Source of the DNA: Thermoplasmatota archaeon
GTDB taxonomy: Archaea; Thermoplasmatota; Thermoplasmata; Thermoplasmatales; Thermoplasmataceae
Length of the DNA stretch: 49,987 nt
Reading direction: 5' to 3'
Assembly (NCBI GenBank): GCA_023489425.1
Contig: JAMDCG010000050.1
Location: 1-49,987 of the forward strand
Made by a program: the position numbers and the translations under genes. The notes under the pieces are model-generated. The model made no database searches. It had not been told where the DNA came from and saw only the letters and a program-made list of their open reading frames with translations. This document shows positions 3,965-48,015 of the stretch, in pieces. Numbering within the stretch: position 1 is the first letter of the stretch; each line of letters begins with the position of its first letter.

Positions 3965-4951
3965 TTGTTAAATCTTGACAAATCCCTTTTTGAAGAAATA
4001 GTAACCGAGAGTGAGTTTGAAAGCCTCGAGAAAAACTGTAAAGGATACCATGGTGTGGAACCTTCAGGAATACCCCATATAGGACATATTCTGGTTATTG
4101 GTACCAGAATCAAGGCAATGATGAGAGCTGGTATCAGGATGCAGATATTACTGGCAGACTGGCATGCCATGGTAAATGATAAGCTGGGTGGCGATCTGGA
4201 ACGTATAAGGCAGAGTGGAGAGATTCTTAAAAAAGCATACGAAATTGAACTAGGAGATTTGAAACCAGAATTTATATGGGCATCGGATCTGATAGATAAG
4301 AGCAGCTACATGGAGGGTATAATTCGCACTGCTAAGCAAACAACTCTCTCAAGACTGAAACGAGCTCTTCCAATAATGGGAAGGGATGAATCTGACGCTG
4401 AATCAGATTTCAGCAAATATCTATATCCTGTAATGCAGGTAAATGATATTTTTGAATTAGATCTCGATGTTGCTTTGGGAGGCATGGATCAAAGGCACGC
4501 CCATATGCTGGCCAGGGATATTGCAGAAAAAATGAACAGAAAGAAGGTTGTTTCAATGCACTCTCCACTTCTGGGAAGCCTGAAGGGAACTGGAAGAATG
4601 GATAATTTCAAGAAGATGTCGAAAAGTGATCCTGACAGTGCCATCCTCATGACTGATTCAGAAGAAGACGTTAAAAGAAAAATAAAAAATTCATTTTGCC
4701 CCATGGGAATAGCTGAAGGAAATCCGGTAATGGATATCATGAAGATAATCATATTTCCTTCAATGAAAGAGGTAACAATACATAGACCTGAGAAAAAAGG
4801 GGGAGATATAACATTTACAGATTTCATTTCGCTTGAATCCACATATAAATCGGGAGCGATACACCCAATGGACCTTAAAGAATCCGTGACAGATAACCTG
4901 TCTAAAATGATGAAGCCCTTTGCAGTGTTGAGAGATTATTTAGAAAAATGA
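3965..4951 (+). CDS. tyrS: Tyrosyl-tRNA synthetase, archaeal type
   Basis: Class I aminoacyl-tRNA synthetase that charges tRNA-Tyr. The HIGH motif is PHIGH (about residues 37-41) and the KMSKS loop is FKKMSKSD (about residue 218). The segment LYPVMQVNDIFELDLDVALG, continued by GGMDQRHAHMLARD, is diagnostic for the archaeal/eukaryotic TyrRS rather than TrpRS. The length of 328 residues fits archaeal TyrRS, which lack the bacterial anticodon-binding S4 domain. The best start is TTG at 3965; the next in-frame ATG lies well inside the fold. It begins 20 nt after the nuclease-like gene. Its 3' end overlaps the convergent fen1 by 12 nt. Confidence 0.95.
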   Translation: MLNLDKSLFEEIVTESEFESLEKNCKGYHGVEPSGIPHIGHILVIGTRIKAMMRAGIRMQILLADWHAMVNDKLGGDLERIRQSGEILKKAYEIELGDLKPEFIWASDLIDKSSYMEGIIRTAKQTTLSRLKRALPIMGRDESDAESDFSKYLYPVMQVNDIFELDLDVALGGMDQRHAHMLARDIAEKMNRKKVVSMHSPLLGSLKGTGRMDNFKKMSKSDPDSAILMTDSEEDVKRKIKNSFCPMGIAEGNPVMDIMKIIIFPSMKEVTIHRPEKKGGDITFTDFISLESTYKSGAIHPMDLKESVTDNLSKMMKPFAVLRDYLEK

Positions 4952-5959
4952 ATCAAGACTGGATTGATTGCTCTTCTGAAGACTTACTTTTAGCTTATCT
5001 ATAAATGGCCTTACCCTGTTTTCTCCGAAGTTGTGAAGATCGCAAAGGAATGAATATATCTTTTCCTCCTCAGGTTTACCAAAGGTTACGTTAAAATCGT
5101 CTGTAACTTCAGGCTCAAGAAATAGCTTTCTTACATCTTCGTACTGGGGTATGCTGTATCCTTTCTCCCTGATTACTTCTTCGAGATTCCCGTATTTCTG
5201 GATCAGGTTCAGTGCTGTCTTTGATCCAACCCTTTCAACTCCACTGTTGAAATCTGTTCCAACCAATATGGCAATATCCACAAGCTGACTTCTTGTAATA
5301 TTCATATTTGATAGGTTTTCCTTTAGATCGATGTATTCAGGATCTACTGTTACGTAAATGTTTCTGCTTGAAACTCTTCTCTTACCATATATGGTGAAAT
5401 TTCTTAGAACTTCTCTTGCACCAAATAGTAGACAGTCATAATCCTGTGAGATAACTGCATTAACTTTTCCTGTGGAACTCATGTAAGAAGCCTGGCATTC
5501 ACCCTCAGAAGGAGCCTGTACATATGGCAATCCCATATAGGTAAGAAGCTGCTTACTTTCATCTATCATGTCCTTTGTAATATGATTTATCCTTCTCTTC
5601 ATTCTTGCAATTTTTTCCCTATCTGAAGTCATTATTGCCTTTTCCAGTTCTCTTTCTGAATTTTCCTTTATTGCCTTTCTTTCCTCAAGAGTCCTGAGTT
5701 TCATTGGAGAAGGTTTGCCATCAAAAACATATACAGGCTTCAGCCCCTCTTCCATAAGGGAAATTGTCCTGTAGAAAAGACCACTTAAATGAGAGGTAAC
5801 TCTTCCAGATGAATCCATAAGCGGTGTTCCGTCAGGTTGCCTTATGGCACTCAAAAACTGGTAAATTTGGTTATAGGCATCCACTGAAACAGTATTGTTT
5901 GAGAAATCCTTAATGTGAGTTTTGTGCTTTATCAGAATGGGCTCAAGATTAACTCCCAT
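4940..5959 (-). CDS. fen: Flap endonuclease 1 (FEN-1)
   Basis: Structure-specific 5' nuclease that removes RNA/DNA flaps during Okazaki-fragment maturation and repair. The start is set at the ATG giving MGVNLEPI, because FEN-1 proteins begin with Met-Gly at the active site; a longer in-frame ORF up to 6073 would add 38 residues and overlap radB. Visible features: N domain with VSVDAYNQIYQFLSAIR and VYVFDGKPSPMKLRTLEERKA; I domain with APSEGECQASYM and ISQDYDCLLFGA (acidic metal ligands); helix-hairpin region with ILVGTDFNSGVERVGSKTAL; and a C-terminal PCNA-interacting peptide QSSLDSFF (QxxLxxFF). It is the last gene of proS-HAD-radB-fen1, with a 55-nt gap to radB. Confidence 0.96.
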   Translation of the reverse strand: MGVNLEPILIKHKTHIKDFSNNTVSVDAYNQIYQFLSAIRQPDGTPLMDSSGRVTSHLSGLFYRTISLMEEGLKPVYVFDGKPSPMKLRTLEERKAIKENSERELEKAIMTSDREKIARMKRRINHITKDMIDESKQLLTYMGLPYVQAPSEGECQASYMSSTGKVNAVISQDYDCLLFGAREVLRNFTIYGKRRVSSRNIYVTVDPEYIDLKENLSNMNITRSQLVDIAILVGTDFNSGVERVGSKTALNLIQKYGNLEEVIREKGYSIPQYEDVRKLFLEPEVTDDFNVTFGKPEEEKIYSFLCDLHNFGENRVRPFIDKLKVSLQKSNQSSLDSFF

Positions 5960-6014
5960 ATACTTCCATATGTGTGCCAGTATGTAAATCTTTTTGAAAC
6001 CATCCAGACTAAAT

Positions 6015-6707
6015 TTATCCTTCTGTGCATGAAAGACCTGTGCTGTTGACAAATATTTCAACAGATTTACCATCCTGAATGGATCTATGTTTTACTATTT
6101 TCAACTCTCTCCCGGTTCCCCTTGTTCGTTTAATTGACAGTATGGTTTTTGAGAAATGGTTCAGTAAATAACCACCATAGGGAGTTATCTGGTTTTCCTC
6201 AACATCAAAATATATCTGATTTGTTATGAATACTGGAATTTTATACTTATTACATATGGTGTTTATGATTGATATATCTCTTGATAGACCCTGATTTTTA
6301 AGATTTTCATCTCTTTCGATTCTAAGCAGGGCAGTCATTGAATCAATCACAAGAAGTTTTACGTCTTTTGAATTCTGCATCATTCTCTCGGCCTTTATGA
6401 GACAGACCTCCTGCTCCCCTATGTTCTCGGGTGTAAACAGAATAAGATTGTTAGAATATTCCTGATTTCCCCCGCATATTTGCAGAAACCTGTTGCTTGA
6501 AAATCCCTCTGTATCAACATATATGACCCTTTCACCTCTGGACAGAGCAGAAACTGTGAGCTGAAGTGCCATGTTTGTCTTCCCGGAACCGCCCTCACCA
6601 TATATCTGTGTGATTACGCCAGGATCAATGCCTCCCTCAAGAAACTGATCAATGCACCCAATCCCAAAGGGAAGTTTCTCTTCCCTTCTTATTTCAGGTG
6701 ATTTCAT
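6015..6707 (-). CDS. radB: DNA repair and recombination protein RadB
   Basis: RadB is the archaeal RecA/RadA paralogue thought to assist RadA loading. The 230-residue protein is essentially the bare RecA core, as in known RadB: Walker A GEGGSGKTNMAL near residue 37, YVDTEGFS, Walker B KLLVIDSMTALL, and FITNQIYFDVEE followed by TPYGGYLLNHFSKTILSIKR (L2/C-terminal strand region). It lacks the N-terminal helix-hairpin-helix domain found in RadA. The gene overlaps the upstream HAD phosphatase gene by 14 nt, so it is probably translated by coupling, and it shares an operon with fen1, another replication/repair nuclease. Confidence 0.94.
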   Translation of the reverse strand: MKSPEIRREEKLPFGIGCIDQFLEGGIDPGVITQIYGEGGSGKTNMALQLTVSALSRGERVIYVDTEGFSSNRFLQICGGNQEYSNNLILFTPENIGEQEVCLIKAERMMQNSKDVKLLVIDSMTALLRIERDENLKNQGLSRDISIINTICNKYKIPVFITNQIYFDVEENQITPYGGYLLNHFSKTILSIKRTRGTGRELKIVKHRSIQDGKSVEIFVNSTGLSCTEG

Positions 6708-29387: not shown

Positions 29388-31292
29388 TTATTTATATAAA
29401 TCAAATATTGTAATACTTTCATTCCTAAAATTAAAGGATTCAGCATAATGTGCTTTATCCCATAAATTGTTTATTTCCTCAATACTAAGAAAGTAATCCG
29501 ATTTTCTCCTCATTTCATTCATGCAGATCTCGATAAAAGATGACCCCATGACAGACTGTTCCACGAAGGTCCTGTAATTTTCAAGTTTATCTATTGAAAA
29601 TCTTACCAGTTTTCCACCTACAACTAAGTACAGAATACCATTTCTTTCCTCACATATTAGAATGTTCCTGTAATCATAATATGATCCAGACCCTTTCATT
29701 TTCAGATTTTCAAGACTATTTCGCATGGAGTCTCTGTTGCAAAATTTTTCATATAGTATTCTGCCCATATTTCTCCCACATAGAAAAATCAATTTTAAAG
29801 AACTGTAATTTACGGCTTTTTCAACTACCCTTGAAAACTTCCCCACATCTGAAACTTCAATTTCGACAACAACAGGCCGGTTGTTGTAATAAAATAAAAT
29901 ATCTGGTCTTAGACTGTTAAGTTTTCTTTCTCTTTCTGGAAATATATCTCTACTTTCAAGGAACCGCAGCATAAATGTTGATAAATAAGTATGATCAGGC
30001 AGAGTTAAAATCTCTGACATTGGCTCCTCATCTGTATCGTTACCATACAGATCTAAACTTTCCCCTACTCTAGATTCGACTTCAATTTTGTTTACCTTTG
30101 TATCAATTAAGTAAGGGATAAAACTATCCACTTCTATTCCACTTTTCGAAAGGAAATTAAAGTGTGTTACATTATGTGGTGTTCCGAGCAGTATAGATTT
30201 TAATGCTTCAGTCTTCTTCTTTCTGTTTGTAATAACGTTAGTGATTTCCATAGCGTCCCTTTCAGATACATTGAATGAGTAAATCGAACCACAGTTTGAA
30301 AGGAGAGACCCCTTTGTATATCGATCGTACTGATCCAGATACTGAGAAGCTACGGTAAGGTAGGTGTTAAATTTTCTTCCCTCACTTAGAATCTCAGACA
30401 GCACGCTAGAATTCAGATTCTGCGCCTCGTCTGCTACAATCATTGTTTGTGGAGTTATTCCTTCTTTAAGGATTTCTGTCCAGATTCTGTTTAGTATTAG
30501 TGAAGAAATTATTTTGCCTTGAGTTGTAGAAAATCTTGTCTTTGACACGTCTATTACAACTACTTTATCACCTTCAGTCAGTTCCTTTATAATATCTACG
30601 CTTTCATTTCTTGACGAAACCAGTGATTTTATCTTAGGATCACTTAAAATTGGATATAACTTATTTATTGAACTGGAGCTATATTCTATCCATGACTGCC
30701 ATTTTGATATAAGATTTTCTATCACTTTTCTGCTTTCCTTGGTGCAACTGGCAGAAAGCGATTTCATCATCTCCTTTGAAAGAAGTGTGTCCATGAAGTC
30801 ACTTAAGGTTGCTTCTGGCTCTCTTAGTAATATTTCCCTCAGTACTGAAGTGAATATGGTTTGTAATCTCGGTCCCCATGTTCCTCCTGAGAGTGAAGAT
30901 TCTCTGGAGAATATTTCCTGTATAAGGTAGAATGATACAGAAGATTGGGAGGCACCTTTTAATATATTCATTTTCACAACACTTTTACCATCTGGTGAAC
31001 TCCCAAGATAGATCAGTTTCTTGTTATCTATCATTGTAATAATATGGTCTGAAAGTGAACCGTGAAAGTCTATTACGATCATATTTGAACTCTCTACTTT
31101 AAGAATATTCTTGCAAAGATTTAATAGAAGATTGGATTTTCCAGTTCCGGTTCTACCCGTGATTAGTGTGTGGAACATCAGAGATCGGGCATTAATTAAA
31201 TATGGATAACCTGAAGCTCCATTCCCAATCTCTATACCTTCTCCCTGAATTCTCTTCCCAGAGGAGATACCAATATCATATCTGAAAGGCAT
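29388..31292 (-). CDS. VirD4/HerA-like DNA-pump ATPase fused to a nuclease-like domain
   Basis: The 634-residue protein has an FtsK/HerA-superfamily ATPase domain: Walker A TLITGRTGTGKSNLL (residues about 42-56), MIVIDFHGSLSDH, Walker B TMIVADEAQNLNSSVLSEI (about 283-301), and the sensor-like YLTVASQYLDQYD (about 311-323), closest in plan to VirD4/TraD/TraG-type DNA-translocation ATPases. The C-terminal part (about 455-560) resembles restriction-endonuclease-like folds: LRPDILFYYNNRPVVVEIEV (Asp464, Glu477-x-Glu479) then GKFSRVVEKAVNYSSLKLIF. The lysine of a classical ExK is missing, though Lys485 could stand in. It starts 3 nt after the stop of an uncharacterised upstream gene, so the two form an operon. 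No conjugation genes are nearby. Confidence 0.82.
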   Translation of the reverse strand: MPFRYDIGISSGKRIQGEGIEIGNGASGYPYLINARSLMFHTLITGRTGTGKSNLLLNLCKNILKVESSNMIVIDFHGSLSDHIITMIDNKKLIYLGSSPDGKSVVKMNILKGASQSSVSFYLIQEIFSRESSLSGGTWGPRLQTIFTSVLREILLREPEATLSDFMDTLLSKEMMKSLSASCTKESRKVIENLISKWQSWIEYSSSSINKLYPILSDPKIKSLVSSRNESVDIIKELTEGDKVVVIDVSKTRFSTTQGKIISSLILNRIWTEILKEGITPQTMIVADEAQNLNSSVLSEILSEGRKFNTYLTVASQYLDQYDRYTKGSLLSNCGSIYSFNVSERDAMEITNVITNRKKKTEALKSILLGTPHNVTHFNFLSKSGIEVDSFIPYLIDTKVNKIEVESRVGESLDLYGNDTDEEPMSEILTLPDHTYLSTFMLRFLESRDIFPERERKLNSLRPDILFYYNNRPVVVEIEVSDVGKFSRVVEKAVNYSSLKLIFLCGRNMGRILYEKFCNRDSMRNSLENLKMKGSGSYYDYRNILICEERNGILYLVVGGKLVRFSIDKLENYRTFVEQSVMGSSFIEICMNEMRRKSDYFLSIEEINNLWDKAHYAESFNFRNESITIFDLYK

Positions 31293-39829: not shown

Positions 39830-40162
39830 ATGGCATCATTTAAGCTTTATTATAAAATAGGGATAATAGGAGCTCTCATAAACATAGTTCTAGCATTGAT
39901 TCTGTTTGTGCTGCATGACATTACAAGCTATATTTCATTCTTTGGAAAGGTGAGTGCAGGGGCTGCTGTAGTTGATAACTTACTCTTCAGTGTTATTGGA
40001 ATAATAGGCGTCGAACTTAGCAGAAGAAAGAAAGAAATTGGTCTAACAACTATGGCTGTAATTTCCGTTGCAGGAATAATAGCATATCCCGGAATTTTCA
40101 TTATAGGTTATATAGTAATTCTAGTAGCAGTGTTTCTTGGATTATTTGAAAAGAAGCATTGA
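39830..40162 (+). CDS. Small membrane protein, function unknown
   Basis: The 110-residue hydrophobic protein has about four helices (residues about 7-27, 43-62, 72-88 and 90-105) separated by short basic loops (SRRKKEIG) and a C-terminal FEKKH tail. The Gly/Ile-rich pattern is reminiscent of small DUF4064-type membrane proteins, but the assignment is not secure. A TATA-like CTTAAAATTA stands about 17-25 nt before the ATG. It lies between the glycosyltransferase and the vWA gene. Confidence 0.62.
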   Translation: MASFKLYYKIGIIGALINIVLALILFVLHDITSYISFFGKVSAGAAVVDNLLFSVIGIIGVELSRRKKEIGLTTMAVISVAGIIAYPGIFIIGYIVILVAVFLGLFEKKH

Positions 40163-40195: not shown

Positions 40196-41017
40196 ATGAC
40201 ATATGACGCAGAAATAAGCAGAAGAAATCCTGGGCTCTTCATTTTTCTCCTAGATCAGTCAAGATCTATGAGTAGAAAGATTGCAGGAGGACAGAGATCA
40301 AAAGCCCAAGAGGCCTCAGATGCAATTAACAGGCAGTTGAATGAGGTTATAAGTAGATGTACAAAGTCAGATGGCATAAGACCTTATTTTGATGTTGGAG
40401 TAATTGGTTACGGATTCAAGAGTGGAGATGCACGGGGCTTGATTGGAGATAGTCCTGTATCAATTTCAGAACTTGAGAGTCATATTTTGAAAATGGAGAA
40501 ACATTCTGAGGAAATAGATGGTGAAACAATTGAAACGGAGTTTCCAGTTTGGTTTGAACCTGTCGCATCATACGATACTCCCATGGTAAAAGCTCTAACA
40601 ATTGCTAAGGAATGGACAGAGAAGTGGATTGGAGAGCATGGGAATTCTTTTCCCCCGGTTATCATAAATATTAGTGATGGTGGGGCAACGGATGGGAATC
40701 CATCTGACATTGCTGAAGAGATAATGAACATGGAAACTTCTGATGGGAAGGTTCTATTGTGGAACTGCCATCTCTCCGAAAAGGATGAAAAACCAATAAG
40801 TTTTCCAAAGGATGAAACAGAAATACCTGAGGATAAGAACGCAAGAACAATGTTTTCAATGACAAGCGTTGTTCCAGAGCCAATGGTTGCCATAGCAAAG
40901 GAGGAATTCTCAAACGTTGAAAGTGGTTCCAAAGCATATGTTTTTAACGCAAATCTTGAAGAATTGATAAAGCTTCTGGACATTGGAACAAGAGTGGTAT
41001 ATAACAAGGTAGAATGA
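40196..41017 (+). CDS. TerY-like von Willebrand factor A domain protein
   Basis: The 273-residue protein is a single vWA domain. The metal-ion-dependent adhesion site is complete: FIFLLDQSRSMS (Asp20-x-Ser22-x-Ser24), a Thr in ASYDTPMVKALTIA, and Asp in IINISDGGATDG. TerY-type vWA proteins present partner proteins in Ter stress systems. Its stop overlaps the start of a PP2C-type gene (ATGA), and a protein kinase gene follows convergently. The vWA-PP2C-kinase set is the known TerY-P triad composition. It is cytoplasmic, with no signal peptide. Confidence 0.88.
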   Translation: MTYDAEISRRNPGLFIFLLDQSRSMSRKIAGGQRSKAQEASDAINRQLNEVISRCTKSDGIRPYFDVGVIGYGFKSGDARGLIGDSPVSISELESHILKMEKHSEEIDGETIETEFPVWFEPVASYDTPMVKALTIAKEWTEKWIGEHGNSFPPVIINISDGGATDGNPSDIAEEIMNMETSDGKVLLWNCHLSEKDEKPISFPKDETEIPEDKNARTMFSMTSVVPEPMVAIAKEEFSNVESGSKAYVFNANLEELIKLLDIGTRVVYNKVE

Positions 41018-41730
41018 TGGAGGTTCACTCCTTTAATTTTTCTAAATCTGGAAACAATCCTGAGGAGACAGAGGATTCCCTGAGTATAAATCTTGAAAAA
41101 CTAAAGTTCGCCATAGCTGATGGTGCAAGTGATTCTATATTTTCAGGACAGTGGGCTTTTGCCCTGACAAACGAGTTCGTTAATAACAATGGGGATGAGA
41201 AAATAAAAAACGACATAGGGCAATTTATTCAAGATTCCAGAAAGATGTGGTATGAGAGCATAAACTGGAAAGGACTTAAATGGAATGTTAAAAACAAGGC
41301 TGTTCGAGGAGCCTATTCAACTTTTTTGGGTATTAGTACAGAATTTGGTTCTATGGAAAGCTTAATTGTTCATGCTATAGGAGATTCATGTATTTTCATC
41401 TTTGATGAGGGCAAGATGAAAAGTTTTCCACTTAATTCCCCAGATCAATTTGGTATTCACCCAAGTCTCGTCTGGTCTGGATATGGTTTCCCCCTAAACA
41501 ATAAACCCTTTGAACAGAAATTAAATATTAAGCAGGAGAAATTTAAGATTATTAAAGGAAATGAGATAATACTCGCGACTGATGCCATGTCAAAATTTAT
41601 AATGGAGGCAGGCGAAGATAGTTTCGGACTATTATGGGATCATTATAATGACAGAACTTTTTTTGATGATATGAGAAACGAAAATACCATAAAAAATGAT
41701 GACCTTTCAGCCATACTTATCTCATTCTGA
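41014..41730 (+). CDS. Divergent PP2C-like phosphatase of the TerY-P-like triad
   Basis: PPM-fold protein of 238 residues, more divergent than the one at 16562-17287 but with all metal positions retained: EETEDSLSIN, FAIADGASDSIFSGQWA, VHAIGDSCIFIFDEG, EIILATDAMSKFIME, and KNDDLSAILISF. The start overlaps the vWA stop by 4 nt, so translation is coupled. It likely reverses phosphorylation by the kinase encoded opposite; the two genes overlap by 14 nt tail to tail. Target proteins unknown. Confidence 0.85.
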   Translation: MMEVHSFNFSKSGNNPEETEDSLSINLEKLKFAIADGASDSIFSGQWAFALTNEFVNNNGDEKIKNDIGQFIQDSRKMWYESINWKGLKWNVKNKAVRGAYSTFLGISTEFGSMESLIVHAIGDSCIFIFDEGKMKSFPLNSPDQFGIHPSLVWSGYGFPLNNKPFEQKLNIKQEKFKIIKGNEIILATDAMSKFIMEAGEDSFGLLWDHYNDRTFFDDMRNENTIKNDDLSAILISF

Positions 41731-43102
41731 GAAGAGTGGAAGGATCAAAACCTGACCAGTCTGGAGGCTGCCCCAGGTATTCATTTATTAGTTTTACCAG
41801 CTTCTTTAATTTTGGACTTTCAGATTGAACGTCCCTTAACGCTTTTGAGCGATCTGGAGATTCGAAATCAGTAATATCAAAGAGAAGCTTATCGGGGTCG
41901 TCCCCATTATATTTCCATAACTTCGGATTTTTTGAAAGTGCGATCAATGAGGTATATATTATGAGTATAGAGAAATTATCAAGTCTTTCTCCGTAGTATT
42001 TGCCCCTCCTTGGATGCTGGAATGATTCATGTCCAAGCTCTTCTGAACCAAGTTTTTTAAGGGCTGGAACAAACATTCCGTCATAGTCAATAAGTTTTAC
42101 ATTATTACCTGTATCTATCAATATATTATCACACGAGAGGTCACCGTGTGCTATGAAATTGTTCTGCATTTCCGTGATACAGTTTACGAGATTGTTTCCG
42201 ATTGCCTTAAATGTTTCATGGTTCGCTAAATTCTCTTTTATAAAAGTATGAAGAGTTTTTCCTTCGATCCACTTCATAGTCACCGCTGGAAAATACTCCT
42301 TCGGTCGTTGTGTCACCCTTAATGCATCCTGGTAGAACTTAAAATCAAGAAGGAATGAAATTTGTGAATCATTTATTTTTTTGGAAACTTCATAATATCT
42401 GAGTTGAATATTTGGACTTCCTCTTGTGAAGCATTTCAGTGCAAAGTCTCCAGCATTACTCCTGTATTTGAAGACCACACCAAAATTACCTGCTCCCTGA
42501 ATAATACTTGAATACTTCACATTCTGGTTTTTCTCAAATGTTATTCCTTTAAGTTCATCATAATTTTTAGATAAAGAAAAGTTTGGGTTCTGCAAAGACT
42601 GAGCATACTGTGATGAGGTTGGCCAGGATCTTTTCACAGGTGTGAATATAGATCCCGTAGACATAGACGATAGGGTCTTTTCCTTAACTACATTATTTAT
42701 GGATTGATTTTCTTCAGGAGCATGACTTTCTTCTATACCTATTATTCTCATATTTTCTTTTAGTTTTTCCATATCAATGTCCATTCGAGTGAATTTACCA
42801 TCTTTGGCAATCGAATAAAAGGAGAAACTATACTTTTTCTCATTGTCCAGTCTGTATGATAATCTGAATTCGTCTCTAATTTTTTTGAGTTTTACTACTC
42901 TATCCCGAAGTTTATAATCCCTTATTGTGACCTCCATGCTCTTAATATATTTTCTATGCTTCGGAGTTACAAAGACATTAAGGGTACCGTCATCCTTGTT
43001 ATATTCCACTTCACGAATTTCTATTGATGGTTCATAGGATTCATATTTCTTGATCCTTATGTTGTGAATCCTTTCTCTAATTCCTTTCCTCGATTCGACC
43101 AT
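41717..43102 (-). CDS. Serine/threonine protein kinase-like protein of the TerY-P-like triad
   Basis: The 461-residue protein has an N-terminal beta-rich region (about 1-125), a Ser/Pro-rich linker, then a kinase domain: Gly-rich loop GAGNFGVVF (203-211), ATP-binding Lys223 (FALKCF), catalytic loop HGDLSCDNILI (Asp321), metal Asp339 in LIDYDGMF replacing DFG, and EELGHESFQHPRRG in the activation segment. The catalytic loop and DYDG form are those of bacterial/archaeal kinases linked to TerY-P systems. The C-terminal PPDWSGFDPSTLL is a short conserved-looking tail. All catalytic residues are present, so activity is likely. Convergent with the PP2C gene. Confidence 0.86.
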   Translation of the reverse strand: MVESRKGIRERIHNIRIKKYESYEPSIEIREVEYNKDDGTLNVFVTPKHRKYIKSMEVTIRDYKLRDRVVKLKKIRDEFRLSYRLDNEKKYSFSFYSIAKDGKFTRMDIDMEKLKENMRIIGIEESHAPEENQSINNVVKEKTLSSMSTGSIFTPVKRSWPTSSQYAQSLQNPNFSLSKNYDELKGITFEKNQNVKYSSIIQGAGNFGVVFKYRSNAGDFALKCFTRGSPNIQLRYYEVSKKINDSQISFLLDFKFYQDALRVTQRPKEYFPAVTMKWIEGKTLHTFIKENLANHETFKAIGNNLVNCITEMQNNFIAHGDLSCDNILIDTGNNVKLIDYDGMFVPALKKLGSEELGHESFQHPRRGKYYGERLDNFSILIIYTSLIALSKNPKLWKYNGDDPDKLLFDITDFESPDRSKALRDVQSESPKLKKLVKLINEYLGQPPDWSGFDPSTLLRMR

Positions 43103-43489
43103 TGTTCCACCAATTAATAGATAAAACTATTACTGGAAAATCTCTGGTTAACCGAATGATTTGTTTGGTAAAACATACAGATCGAATATGGCCTTTTGAC
43201 TAATTTCTCCTTATTTTTTCCACTCAAAAATTTAGAGAATTCTAACTTCATTAAATTCTTATATTCTCGATCTTAATTAATCTTTACAACGAATTAGATG
43301 TAAAATGCGAAAATGAATATCATAAAAGGTTTAATTTATAACTTTTGAATCAACTCATGATGCGTAATTGAACGTGTTAAAGTATCTGATTAATTAAGCT
43401 CTGTACTTGTTTCTAAATCAGAAATTATAGTGGATAATGAAGGGATATTACAGGCAAAAACCTTAATGTTATTCTTACTATCATGAAAT
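43103..43489. other. AT-rich intergenic region between kinase and helicase-nuclease genes
   Basis: About 390 nt with no convincing gene. It holds the divergent promoters of the kinase gene (minus) and the helicase-nuclease gene (plus). TTAATTTATAAC near 43331-43342 is a TATA-like element, but it is about 155 nt before the helicase ATG; a weaker AT block (CCTTAATGTTATTC, about 43461-43474) is closer. I found no tRNA or clear repeats. Confidence 0.45.
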
Positions 43490-46186
43490 ATGATGAGCAA
43501 ATCACGGATACTTGTTTCTGCAAATCCTGGGTCTGGTAAGACTGAAGACCTTTCAAATCAGGTTTCAAAACTTCTTCAAGAAGGAGTAGATTCAGATAAT
43601 ATTTTATGCCTCACGTTCACAAATAAGGCAAGAGATGAGATGGAAAGAAGGATTATAATTAAGATGAAGGATACAAAGTATAAGGTGCCGGACATTCATA
43701 CATTCCATAGCCTATCTCAAAGTATAATAAATCATAGAATGGAAGGTGGGGACTTGATACCTGAAAGATTCCTCAGATATCAGATATTAAAATCTCTTGA
43801 AACAAGACAGATAATGAATTATGATGGAGAAGTTTTATCGAAAGATTATCCGGCAATAGTAAACGTAGGTCAAATTGTGAATGCGATAAAGTTCCTCAAA
43901 AGTTTTGCTATTTTACCAGATAAAGTCCATATAGAGGAACTTAAGAAAAATGTAAGGATGGAGTATAACAATGGTAATGGAGTGAATGGTTACACTCTGG
44001 AAGAAATGGAAATCTTATGTGAGGGATTTCTAGATATATTCCGTGACTACGAATCTTCAAAGAATTTATCTCAGATGGATTATAACGATATTCTCTTAAG
44101 AGCTGTAAATTATTCCAAGGCCCACTTCAATAAATATCAGTATGTTTTTGTTGACGAAGTTCAGGATATGAGTGAAATAGAATATGAACTGGTAAAGCAG
44201 GTTGGGGAGAATGTGTATGCTGTTGGAGACATGAAACAGGCAATTTTCGGTTTCCAGGGTGGTAACATTCGTGCTTTAAGAGATATGATGTCCGGGAAAG
44301 ATTTTGAAAAAAGGGTCATAGATGGAACCAGAAGATTGCCAAAAAATGTTGTTGAATATTGCATTAACTTCTACAGAACTCACGAACCAGAAGAACTGTC
44401 ACCTGAGCTGGACCATTTCAGGAGCATGAATGAAAAGGATGGGGTGGTTACACTTATCAGGCTGAAAGATAAGGGTGAATTGATAGATGCAGTAACAGAA
44501 ATTCTGAATAAGCAGAATAATGATGAATCCGTAGGTATTATTGTTAGAACTAATGAACAGGCAAATGATCTTTCAGATTCTCTCACATTAAAGAATATTT
44601 CACATCAAAAGATTTCTGGTACGAAAGGTGAGAAGCTGTGGAGAGAGGAAATTTCAAAATTCATCGGTGGGATTTACGGAACCTCTGACAGCATAATTGG
44701 AATGATCTATTCAATTTACTCCAGGATACCATTATACGATGGTATTCAGATAGCAGAGAGAATGAGATTTGAAAACGATCTGAAGAAGGTTCTTCCCAGA
44801 GAGTTGATAGATATAAGGGAAAAATATGGAAATCATAAGAATCAACTTCTTCAGCTATTCAATGATTATATAATTCCAAATTCTATTGCTCTGGGCGAAT
44901 CAGCCTTTGAGGCTGCCAAGGATGTATTTGACTCTCTTCCCATGTTCCTTGATAGATTCGGAACAGGAGAAGAATACTCCCTCGCCAGTCTCCAGAAGTA
45001 TATACTTCAGGAGAATTCAAGGGATAGTGTTGATGAGATCTCAGAGAAGGTCTGTATAATTACCGTACATAAGGCAAAGGGGCTTGAATTTGATCACGTT
45101 ATATACATTCCAAAATACACAGAGAAGAAGAATATAAGTGCCATTGATCTTATCGTAGATTCCATACTGAAAAGCAATAATCTGAGTTACAGTAGGGATG
45201 AAAGAATAAAGGAGGAAAACAGGATAGATTTTGTTGCACTTACTAGAACAAAGAATTCTCTTGATATTATAACTGAGAAAAAATCTTCAACGAGATATGA
45301 TTTAGAACCATGCAAAAAAATTGACTTTACAACTAAGATAGTAAATAATGAATTTGTAAGTATGAAGGATATTTCCGATAGAGAAAAATTGAAGCTTAAT
45401 TTCAAACCATGGATAAGGGATTATTTGAAAAAGAAAATGGAAAAATTGAATAACCTGAGTTTTACCATGCTCGAGAGGGTCAAGGAACTGGATAAATTTG
45501 TTGAGTCATATGTGCTAGGAATACAGACTAAATCTTCAGCCTTAACCTTTGGAAGTGATATTCACAGCTACATAGAAAATTATATAAAAAGTCATGAGAC
45601 ACCACCAATTATGAATGACGAAAAGCTTACCAGAACGTGGAGCAATTTCATTTCCTATGATAAATACGTAAGGGAAATACAGAAGGGTAAATGGTTAGGA
45701 TCTGAAATGAAATTCAAGCAAAAGGTTAGTAACGTTTTCCCGGATATTATGACAAATATTACTGTTGAGGGCAGGATCGATGGATTGTATAAGTACATTG
45801 AAGGAAATACAGAGAAAACAGTTATTGTGGACTTTAAAACTTCCAAAAAAGTTAACAGGGACTATGTGAACCAGCTATCACTTTACGCAAAGCTATTTTC
45901 TCTTGAAAATAAAATAGATATGGAACAGATAGAGTCAGAAATTGCATATTTGAGTCTGAGAGATACCAAGGTGAATATAAACAGGATAGAAAAAAGATGG
46001 GATAGAATCGATCCAACCATTGAGATGAGAGCATTAGAAGATGTAAAGAAGACCGTTGAAAAATTTGTTAATTATAAATTGTCGGTCGATTCAATGATTC
46101 GAGACATCCTTAGTGTAAGGAACACCGAATCTAATGTTTTCATTGAATTTCAGAAGATGCTAAAGATGGAAATGGAAAACAGTTGA
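43490..46186 (+). CDS. UvrD/PcrA-like SF1 helicase fused to a RecB-type nuclease
   Basis: The 898-residue protein has an SF1A helicase core: Walker A ANPGSGKTED (residues 11-20), CLTFTNKARDEMERR (motif Ia), VFVDEVQDMSEIEY (motif II), AVGDMKQAIFGFQGG (III), DGTRRLPKNVVEY (IV), ITVHKAKGLEFDHVIYIP (V), and RIDFVALTRTKNSLDI (VI). The N-terminal Q motif is lacking. The C-terminal part (about residues 685-830) is a RecB-type PD-(D/E)XK nuclease: GSDIHSYIENY, a Glu in GSEMKFKQ, VEGRIDGLYK, VIVDFKTSKK, and NQLSLYAKLF. There is no iron-sulfur cysteine cluster. This AddA-like plan suits DNA-end processing in repair or defence. It begins 387 nt from the kinase gene. Confidence 0.92.
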   Translation: MMSKSRILVSANPGSGKTEDLSNQVSKLLQEGVDSDNILCLTFTNKARDEMERRIIIKMKDTKYKVPDIHTFHSLSQSIINHRMEGGDLIPERFLRYQILKSLETRQIMNYDGEVLSKDYPAIVNVGQIVNAIKFLKSFAILPDKVHIEELKKNVRMEYNNGNGVNGYTLEEMEILCEGFLDIFRDYESSKNLSQMDYNDILLRAVNYSKAHFNKYQYVFVDEVQDMSEIEYELVKQVGENVYAVGDMKQAIFGFQGGNIRALRDMMSGKDFEKRVIDGTRRLPKNVVEYCINFYRTHEPEELSPELDHFRSMNEKDGVVTLIRLKDKGELIDAVTEILNKQNNDESVGIIVRTNEQANDLSDSLTLKNISHQKISGTKGEKLWREEISKFIGGIYGTSDSIIGMIYSIYSRIPLYDGIQIAERMRFENDLKKVLPRELIDIREKYGNHKNQLLQLFNDYIIPNSIALGESAFEAAKDVFDSLPMFLDRFGTGEEYSLASLQKYILQENSRDSVDEISEKVCIITVHKAKGLEFDHVIYIPKYTEKKNISAIDLIVDSILKSNNLSYSRDERIKEENRIDFVALTRTKNSLDIITEKKSSTRYDLEPCKKIDFTTKIVNNEFVSMKDISDREKLKLNFKPWIRDYLKKKMEKLNNLSFTMLERVKELDKFVESYVLGIQTKSSALTFGSDIHSYIENYIKSHETPPIMNDEKLTRTWSNFISYDKYVREIQKGKWLGSEMKFKQKVSNVFPDIMTNITVEGRIDGLYKYIEGNTEKTVIVDFKTSKKVNRDYVNQLSLYAKLFSLENKIDMEQIESEIAYLSLRDTKVNINRIEKRWDRIDPTIEMRALEDVKKTVEKFVNYKLSVDSMIRDILSVRNTESNVFIEFQKMLKMEMENS

Positions 46187-47298: not shown

Positions 47299-48015
47299 GT
47301 GAAAGAAATCTTAAATGGTGTCAATATTTCTATAATAGGGCTTGGGGGTAATGGACAGCTTGCATCTACGCTGTTATCATCTTTAGGTGCACAGATAAGA
47401 CTGATTGATGGTGACACTGTTGAACAATCAAACCTGCAACGACAGCCCCTCTTTGATGAGGATGATTTAGGTATGAATAAAGCAGAAACCGTATACAATA
47501 AAATCAAAAATCGTTCAATCAATAAGAAGTTAAGCTTTGTTAGAGAATATGTAGATTCATCAAATATTAATGCCATACTTGGAAATAGTGACCTGATCTT
47601 TGAAGCTACCGACTCATTTCTGACCAGAGAATTGATAAATGAATATGCCGTGATGAAGAAAATTCCATGGATAATGACCAATAGTTATGGATATTTTGGC
47701 GAATTCATGCTCATTGTGCCGGATGAGACTGCCTGCCTTAATTGCCTTACAGGTGGAAAGAGAATGATTCCTCTAAACTGCCATGCGGACCAGATTTCTC
47801 CTCCAGTTCCAAGTACAGTATCAGTTATGGGAACCTCTTTACTGTTACGATATTTTCAGGATCGTATTAAGGATGAAAACTTCTATTTCTATTCTGCCAC
47901 ACTGATGGAATTGCAAAAAATAAAGGTAAACAAAGTGAAAGAATGCAGAGTTTGCTCAGAGTTAATCTTTGAAAAATTGAATGATACTAAATTTCTTGGC
48001 AGGCAGATATTCTGA
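47299..48015 (+). CDS. E1-like activating enzyme (ThiF/MoeB/HesA family), orphan
   Basis: Rossmann-type adenylating protein of 238 residues: ISIIGLGGNGQLASTLLSSL (nucleotide loop), LIDGDTVEQSNLQRQPLFDE with the Asp/Asn/Arg/Gln ligands, and DLGMNKAETV. The zinc cysteines are CLNC and CRVC; a further Cys lies in LNCHADQISPPVPSTVSVMG, where related enzymes carry a sulfur- or thioester-forming cysteine. Archaeal homologues activate MoaD/ThiS/SAMP small proteins for cofactor synthesis or protein conjugation. No ubiquitin-like partner gene is visible nearby. The start is GTG 47299; no ATG fits the fold. Confidence 0.88.
   Translation: MKEILNGVNISIIGLGGNGQLASTLLSSLGAQIRLIDGDTVEQSNLQRQPLFDEDDLGMNKAETVYNKIKNRSINKKLSFVREYVDSSNINAILGNSDLIFEATDSFLTRELINEYAVMKKIPWIMTNSYGYFGEFMLIVPDETACLNCLTGGKRMIPLNCHADQISPPVPSTVSVMGTSLLLRYFQDRIKDENFYFYSATLMELQKIKVNKVKECRVCSELIFEKLNDTKFLGRQIF

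Follow-up and report, generated by a model that had tools for sequence, protein, structure and literature searches.

A TerY-P-like vWA, phosphatase and kinase triad of Thermoplasmata with kinase N-terminal domains that vary by genus

The four-gene locus and its predicted active sites

We analyzed a stretch of 49,987 nucleotides from an archaeon of the Thermoplasmataceae (GenBank assembly GCA_023489425.1, contig JAMDCG010000050.1, positions 1 to 49,987), hereafter called the window, focusing on three genes for a TerY-like vWA protein, a PP2C-type phosphatase and a protein kinase (the triad) and on the adjoining gene for a helicase-nuclease. The features are listed in Table 1. The window is part of a Thermoplasmata chromosome, 90% of its sampled words being common to the nearest compared genome, G001 (one contig of 1,938,699 bases), and its genus (g1) takes in the Cuniculiplasma sp. 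locus L093. The sequence ATGA at 41014-41017 is common to the stop of the TerY gene and the start of the PP2C gene, the convergent PP2C and kinase genes share 14 bp at their 3' ends (41717-41730), and 387 bp lie between the divergent kinase and helicase genes.

Table 1. Features of the triad locus, in window coordinates. MIDAS, metal ion-dependent adhesion site; SF1, superfamily 1; ORF, open reading frame.
Feature	Position	Strand	Size	Evidence or remark
TerY-like vWA protein	40196..41017	+	273 aa	PADLOC TerY E 5e-76; complete MIDAS D20, S22, S24, T128, D161
PP2C-type phosphatase	41014..41730	+	238 aa	PADLOC PP2C E 2e-25
Protein kinase	41717..43102	-	461 aa	Pkinase E 3e-11; PADLOC STK_OB E 2e-61
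Kinase N-terminal accessory domain, Ig/FN3-like beta sandwich	42740..43024	-	residues 27-121	
Kinase catalytic domain, C-terminal, nothing beyond	41720..42625	-	residues 160-461	alignment of 19 family kinases
UvrD/PcrA-type SF1 helicase with C-terminal PD-(D/E)XK nuclease	43490..46186	+	898 aa	UvrD-helicase E 1e-36; PDDEXK_1 E 4e-7
Small ORF c9, hydrophobic by reading	39830..40162	+		directly 5' of helicase in sister genus; marks triad site here

The Pfam cut-offs were exceeded by Pkinase in the kinase and by UvrD-helicase, UvrD_C and PDDEXK_1 in the helicase-nuclease; the VWA_2 match of TerY lay under the cut-off, no Pfam match was obtained for the window PP2C at E 1, and c9 had none over the cut-off. 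The PADLOC entries for the bacterial STK_OB TerY-P system are PDLC02222-02224, and the STK_OB profile matched the kinase part only (2-274 of 562). In multiple alignments, the MIDAS residues of TerY were unchanged in 18/18 rows, K223, H319, D321, N326 and D339 of the kinase in 19/19, and D21, D124, D190, D229 and D230 of the PP2C in 20/20; the Walker A residues G14, G16, K17 and T18 of the helicase and H692, D764, D781, K783, Q795 and Y799 of the nuclease were likewise unchanged in 20/20 rows. From general knowledge of these folds, we take the listed residues to be catalytic. The predicted structure of the window kinase has a mean predicted local distance difference test score of 89.5. All four genes appear by these tests to be real and intact.

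The locus thus encodes together the core set of TerY-P, namely a MIDAS-bearing TerY-like vWA protein, a PP2C-like phosphatase and a Ser/Thr kinase. The first-pass annotation of the window had described the complete MIDAS, the phosphatase joined to TerY by ATGA, the tail-to-tail kinase with full catalytic residues and the lack of TerD, and each of these points was borne out, with no TerD in any of the 18 same-family genomes searched. Its label of a classical TerY-P fits the composition, according to PADLOC and the active sites, but neither the bacterial gene order nor the bacterial kinase architecture. The helicase-nuclease that it called AddA-type is indeed divergent from the kinase and, like the RecB-like and AddA-like enzymes, carries both the UvrD/PcrA and the PD-(D/E)XK domains with conserved motifs; unlike them, it remained far under the cut-offs of the RecB/AddA NCBIfam models listed (best PRK13909, 117.9 bits vs 650), and no AddB partner was identified, the PDDEXK_1 matches listed in six genomes being individually unchecked.

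Kinase architecture in archaeal and bacterial loci

The bacterial STK_OB TerY-P acts against phages as a system on its own (Gao et al. 2020, cited through PMC11090510). It shares with the window the same three proteins, the same kinase-domain family and the order TerY then PP2C, and the TerY of Pseudomonas entomophila is 43% identical to that of the window. We scanned one genome per species with a TerY alignment and retained 80 of 84 loci, of which Thermoplasmata contributed 47 and bacteria 33. A full kinase match was present in 40 of the 47 archaeal loci, the other seven being cut, broken or unmatched over the domain, and 27 bacterial kinase ORFs were taken from 25 of the 33 bacterial loci.

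All 40 archaeal kinase genes are convergent with TerY-PP2C. In 39 of the encoded proteins, 100 aa or more precede the kinase domain (the exception, L103, is truncated at the edge of its contig), and in none do 60 aa or more follow it; the kinase domain is C-terminal, and neither an OB fold nor a zinc ribbon follows it in any of the 40. The bacterial ORFs are co-directional in 27/27 cases, the kinase domain lying near the N-terminus in 26/27, with one long N-terminal extension and 19 C-terminal ones. These counts place the accessory domain at opposite ends of the kinase, and the kinase gene on opposite strands, in archaea and bacteria. Concordantly, STK_OB matched 1-554 of 562 in the control Pseudomonas kinase, but the kinase part only in archaeal kinases. 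Where both genes were called, the archaeal PP2C and kinase 3' ends range from a 17 bp overlap to a 12 bp gap, except for one L134 fragment. The kinase frame appears broken in L100 and L134, the Thermogymnomonas acidicola and UBA582 copies, owing to decay or assembly error.

The window triad differs from STK_OB TerY-P in its inverted, convergent kinase gene, in the C-terminal position of the kinase domain and in having a genus-specific N-terminal domain rather than a C-terminal OB fold. Zinc-ribbon TerY-P, described in CoCoNuT and other DNA/RNA-processing islands (PMC11090510), is alike in its vWA, PP2C and Ser/Thr kinase proteins and in sometimes lying beside helicases and nucleases; unlike it, the window kinase has no C-terminal extension able to hold a zinc ribbon, and the triad has neither a cross-genus helicase partner nor TerD. 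According to the published kinase fusions, then, the window triad belongs to neither the OB nor the zinc-ribbon type and, on its predicted architecture, is a new TerY-P variant; co-directional gene order as a mark of the bacterial type is our own descriptive criterion, not a published one. Among the open-licence papers searched, we found none that names both TerY and Thermoplasmata and none combining TerY-P, zinc ribbon, kinase and membrane, the latter a search that variant spellings would escape; a triad of this kind is not named in the available parts of PMC1262709, PMC7159879 and PMC5155288.

The N-terminal region of the kinase varies by genus, being an Ig/FN3-like sandwich in the window, PH-like in others, or transmembrane. 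The 41 archaeal N-termini fell into six BLAST groups, and in 11 of the 41 two to six transmembrane segments were predicted, which would embed the input region of several genera in the membrane. The PH-family matches, found in L110 and L122, were weak (E 0.0045-0.23, all under cut-offs), and hhalign gave no relation between the sandwich and PH (0.4%). Folded alone, the window domain gave CBM-, FN3- and Ig-like structural matches in the model, from which we do not claim sugar binding. A C2 domain was rejected, the top five Foldseek matches being full-length PKC but with root-mean-square deviations above 16 A. An amphipathic membrane helix in the window's genus was also discarded, since in each of the 11 kinases tested at least 95 of 1000 shuffles reached the observed value.

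Helicase neighbourhood and distribution of the triad

The first set comprised 41 genomes, of which 19 had TerY, 20 the helicase (full-length or contig-cut, five weak or partial matches being left out) and 17 both. The helicase and the triad are neighbours in 8/8 genomes of the window's genus with both, divergent over 91-387 bp in seven, and in 0/9 genomes of other genera. When 300 genomes of the class were surveyed with a threshold of E 1e-20, 42 had TerY, 45 the helicase and 30 both. The helicase occurred without TerY in 15 of the 45, and TerY without the helicase in 12 of the 42, namely G024, seven f14 and four f15 genomes (the f15 TerY being only distant). In family f1, the helicase was found in 42/44 and TerY in 31/44 genomes, 12 of the 42 having the helicase without TerY. 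With both sets joined, 0/27 genomes of other genera had the two within 5 kb, genes on separate contigs being scored as non-adjacent, without a case-by-case check of how far each lay from its contig end. The nearest approach was in g27, where about 7 and 10 kb separate the helicase from the kinase in G152 and G239, the third genome having the helicase on another contig. Adjacency is therefore confined to one genus (8/8 vs 0/27), and the four-gene neighbourhood that the first-pass annotation had proposed to look for in other Thermoplasmatales did not recur in these genomes of other genera; outside that genus, each partner was found without the other, as its own test of a chance association had envisaged.

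The closest genus, g3, suggests how this adjacency arose. There, the genes c6, GT and c9, which lead into TerY in the window, run straight into the helicase, with c9-helicase gaps of 86, 87 and 68 bp in G014, G308 and G277 (3/3 genomes; the G277 helicase gene runs off its contig). The triad of G014 and G277 lies on another contig, beside a gene pair read as acyl-CoA dehydrogenases, genes of that cluster also being near the triad in G019 and G022; in G308 (83% complete), TerY was not found. Since the sister genus has the block without the triad, the adjacency is most simply explained by a single move of the triad to this site on the branch leading to the window's genus, and, as the rest of the block is also largely conserved there, the conserved adjacency adds little. 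The helicase-nuclease is thus probably an independent enzyme for DNA processing, found across the family, that came to lie next to the triad by one relocation. In G008, about 3 kb (L064:10246-13295) are inserted between the kinase and the helicase in comparison with G007, a close relative; the two ends of the interval resemble those of the 111 bp of G007.

Two further signs of linkage were set aside. The TerY and helicase distances correlate over 17 genomes (r 0.859, reached by 0/2000 permutations), but at -0.03 among the nine outside the genus, so that the correlation reflects the genus itself. Neither gene was found in G005, G009, G010 and G012 (72-85% complete). In G005, G009 and G012 (L184, L182, L183), the nearest glycosyltransferase relative was not accompanied by the window's upstream genes; as the relatives in these three of the four genomes sit in other surroundings, the joint absence is not informative, and joint loss was rejected.

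In the class survey, TerY is mostly all-or-none by genus (g6, 5/5; g26, 3/3; g27, 3/3; g29, 4/4; g12, g11 and g14, 2/2 each; g10, 0/7; g28, 0/3), the exceptions being g1 (5/6) and g3 (2/3). No relative was confirmed among phage records or among 65 pattern matches in viral contigs, and two of 72,556 plasmid records, both cyanobacterial, had one; a mobile element was rejected on these results. This near all-or-none pattern and the scarcity in mobile records suggest that the triad is resident in these genomes and not carried about as a travelling defence cassette. Among ten proteins encoded nearby in the window, PADLOC matches were confined to single components, of the HerA/mad8/AbiO-type ATPase and E1-like kinds. 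The window also contains a HerA-like ATPase gene (29388-31292), a gene for a ThiF/E1-like protein with PADLOC matches to E1-E2 systems (47299-48015), and an FEN1/XPG-type nuclease gene with a Rad51/RadB-like gene, their ends overlapping (4940-6707).

Possible role of the triad

We consider the best explanation, to which we give an even chance, to be a chromosomally fixed, TerY-P-like phospho-switch of Thermoplasmata in which the N-terminal input or tethering domain of the kinase is exchangeable. Its basis is established at the level of sequence, where the parts are present with intact active sites, the kinase gene is convergent, the kinase N-termini differ and the helicase is unlinked outside one genus. 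In such a switch, the N-terminal domain would sense or dock a stress-related ligand or the membrane and set the activity of the kinase, which would phosphorylate TerY or a TerY-bound client; the PP2C would reverse this, and the metal site of TerY may make its binding phosphorylation- or metal-dependent. A metal-sensing phosphorylation switch has been hypothesised for TerY-P by the CoCoNuT authors, and OB and zinc-ribbon kinase fusions have been taken as hints of nucleic-acid binding (PMC11090510). The missing C-terminal OB or zinc-ribbon end argues for another kind of input. The kinase would be on its own transcription unit, so that kinase and TerY-PP2C could be dosed separately.

A vWA protein, CSP5_0782, was detected in the cold-shock proteome of C. 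divulgatum (PMC7285479) with a 1.21-fold rise; for CSP5_0778, a dehydrogenase of the acryloyl-CoA reductase type, that paper gives a 1.5-fold rise in one place and 25% in another. CSP5_0782 is most likely this TerY, because the gene order in G001 is dehydrogenase, helicase, kinase, PP2C, TerY, and because the gamma-glutamyltranspeptidase gene (CSP5_0736 in that paper) lies 48.5 kb before TerY there, about 46 genes' worth. The one VWA_2 match of G001 lies elsewhere, at 716 kb; TerY itself is below the threshold, so that other vWA genes may escape.

It is important to mention several points that weigh against the phospho-switch. The closest tested relatives of the triad, the STK_OB TerY-P, are anti-phage systems, and stable inheritance is compatible with defence. 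TerY was found in 8/12 genomes of g1 in the first set, the four without it being 72-85% complete. As regards the input domain, a sandwich fold by itself names no function, the PH assignment is weak, with matches in 2/5 scanned proteins of that N-terminal group, and the amphipathic membrane helix was negative in the window kinase, 841/1000 shuffles reaching its value. Finally, the cold-shock change is small, and CSP5_0779 to 0781 (PP2C, kinase and helicase by gene order) are absent from the main text of PMC7285479.

The most serious alternative, which we regard as rather unlikely, is a stand-alone antiviral system like the bacterial STK_OB TerY-P, with the N-terminal domain as infection sensor and the helicase irrelevant. 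In its favour, the proteins strongly resemble the PADLOC profiles for TerY-P, bacterial TerY-P protects against Autographiviridae, with survival of most cells (PMC10889362), and against T7-like phages (PMC7699616), and an exchange of sensor domains would fit an arms race. Against this stand the mostly all-or-none presence by genus and the stable position in the window's genus, instead of patchy islands, the lack of an OB fold in archaeal kinases and the single-component matches of the ten neighbours. A role in DNA-damage signalling, in which the triad would tune repair generally and hence lie near repair genes such as the helicase-nuclease here and Nre with a radical-SAM gene in other genera, seems improbable to us: 8/47 archaeal loci (L122:9072-11230, where Nre was confirmed by Pfam, L113, L118, L124, L125, L129, L130 and L135) have the DNA-repair gene Nre and a radical-SAM gene close by, arranged in either of two orientations, a count not set against random gene pairs, but 39/47 lack them, some being too short to show them, and the other triad neighbours read as metabolic genes.

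Very unlikely, in our judgement, is the module proposed by the first-pass annotation, a defence unit in which the triad gates the helicase-nuclease by phosphorylation. Besides the constant adjacency in the window's genus and the two g27 genomes with the helicase at moderate distance, it can draw on a Pontibacter locus (L170:5971-12819) in which a TerY-P triad with a TPR-repeat kinase has, beside the kinase, a convergent UvrD-PDDEXK gene cut by the locus end, the only independent hint of a functional link. The lack of adjacency in the 27 genomes of other genera, the unpaired genes (15/45 and 12/42), the sister-genus block without the triad, the G008 insertion and the likewise conserved flanking genes speak against it, and the general idea of TerY-P beside DNA-processing genes had already been published (PMC11090510 and PMC4978471, citing Anantharaman et al. 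2012).

Returning to the phospho-switch, we tentatively suggest that Thermoplasmata rebuilt an anti-phage TerY-P, or retained its sibling, as a resident, receptor-kinase-like signalling system of acidophilic archaea, possibly one reporting on the membrane or envelope, with swappable sensors (transmembrane, PH-like or Ig-like) on a constant triad. The helicase partnership is probably an accident of one relocation, a functional link beyond it being highly improbable, and adjacency within one genus should not be read as function. To our knowledge, few complete Ser/Thr phosphorylation switches have been worked out in archaea, and we know of no answer to the question of what provides the input to TerY-P in bacteria. 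The triad would offer a compact set of kinase, phosphatase and metal-binding adaptor with input domains that differ across many genera, so that the input to TerY-P may become testable by domain swaps.

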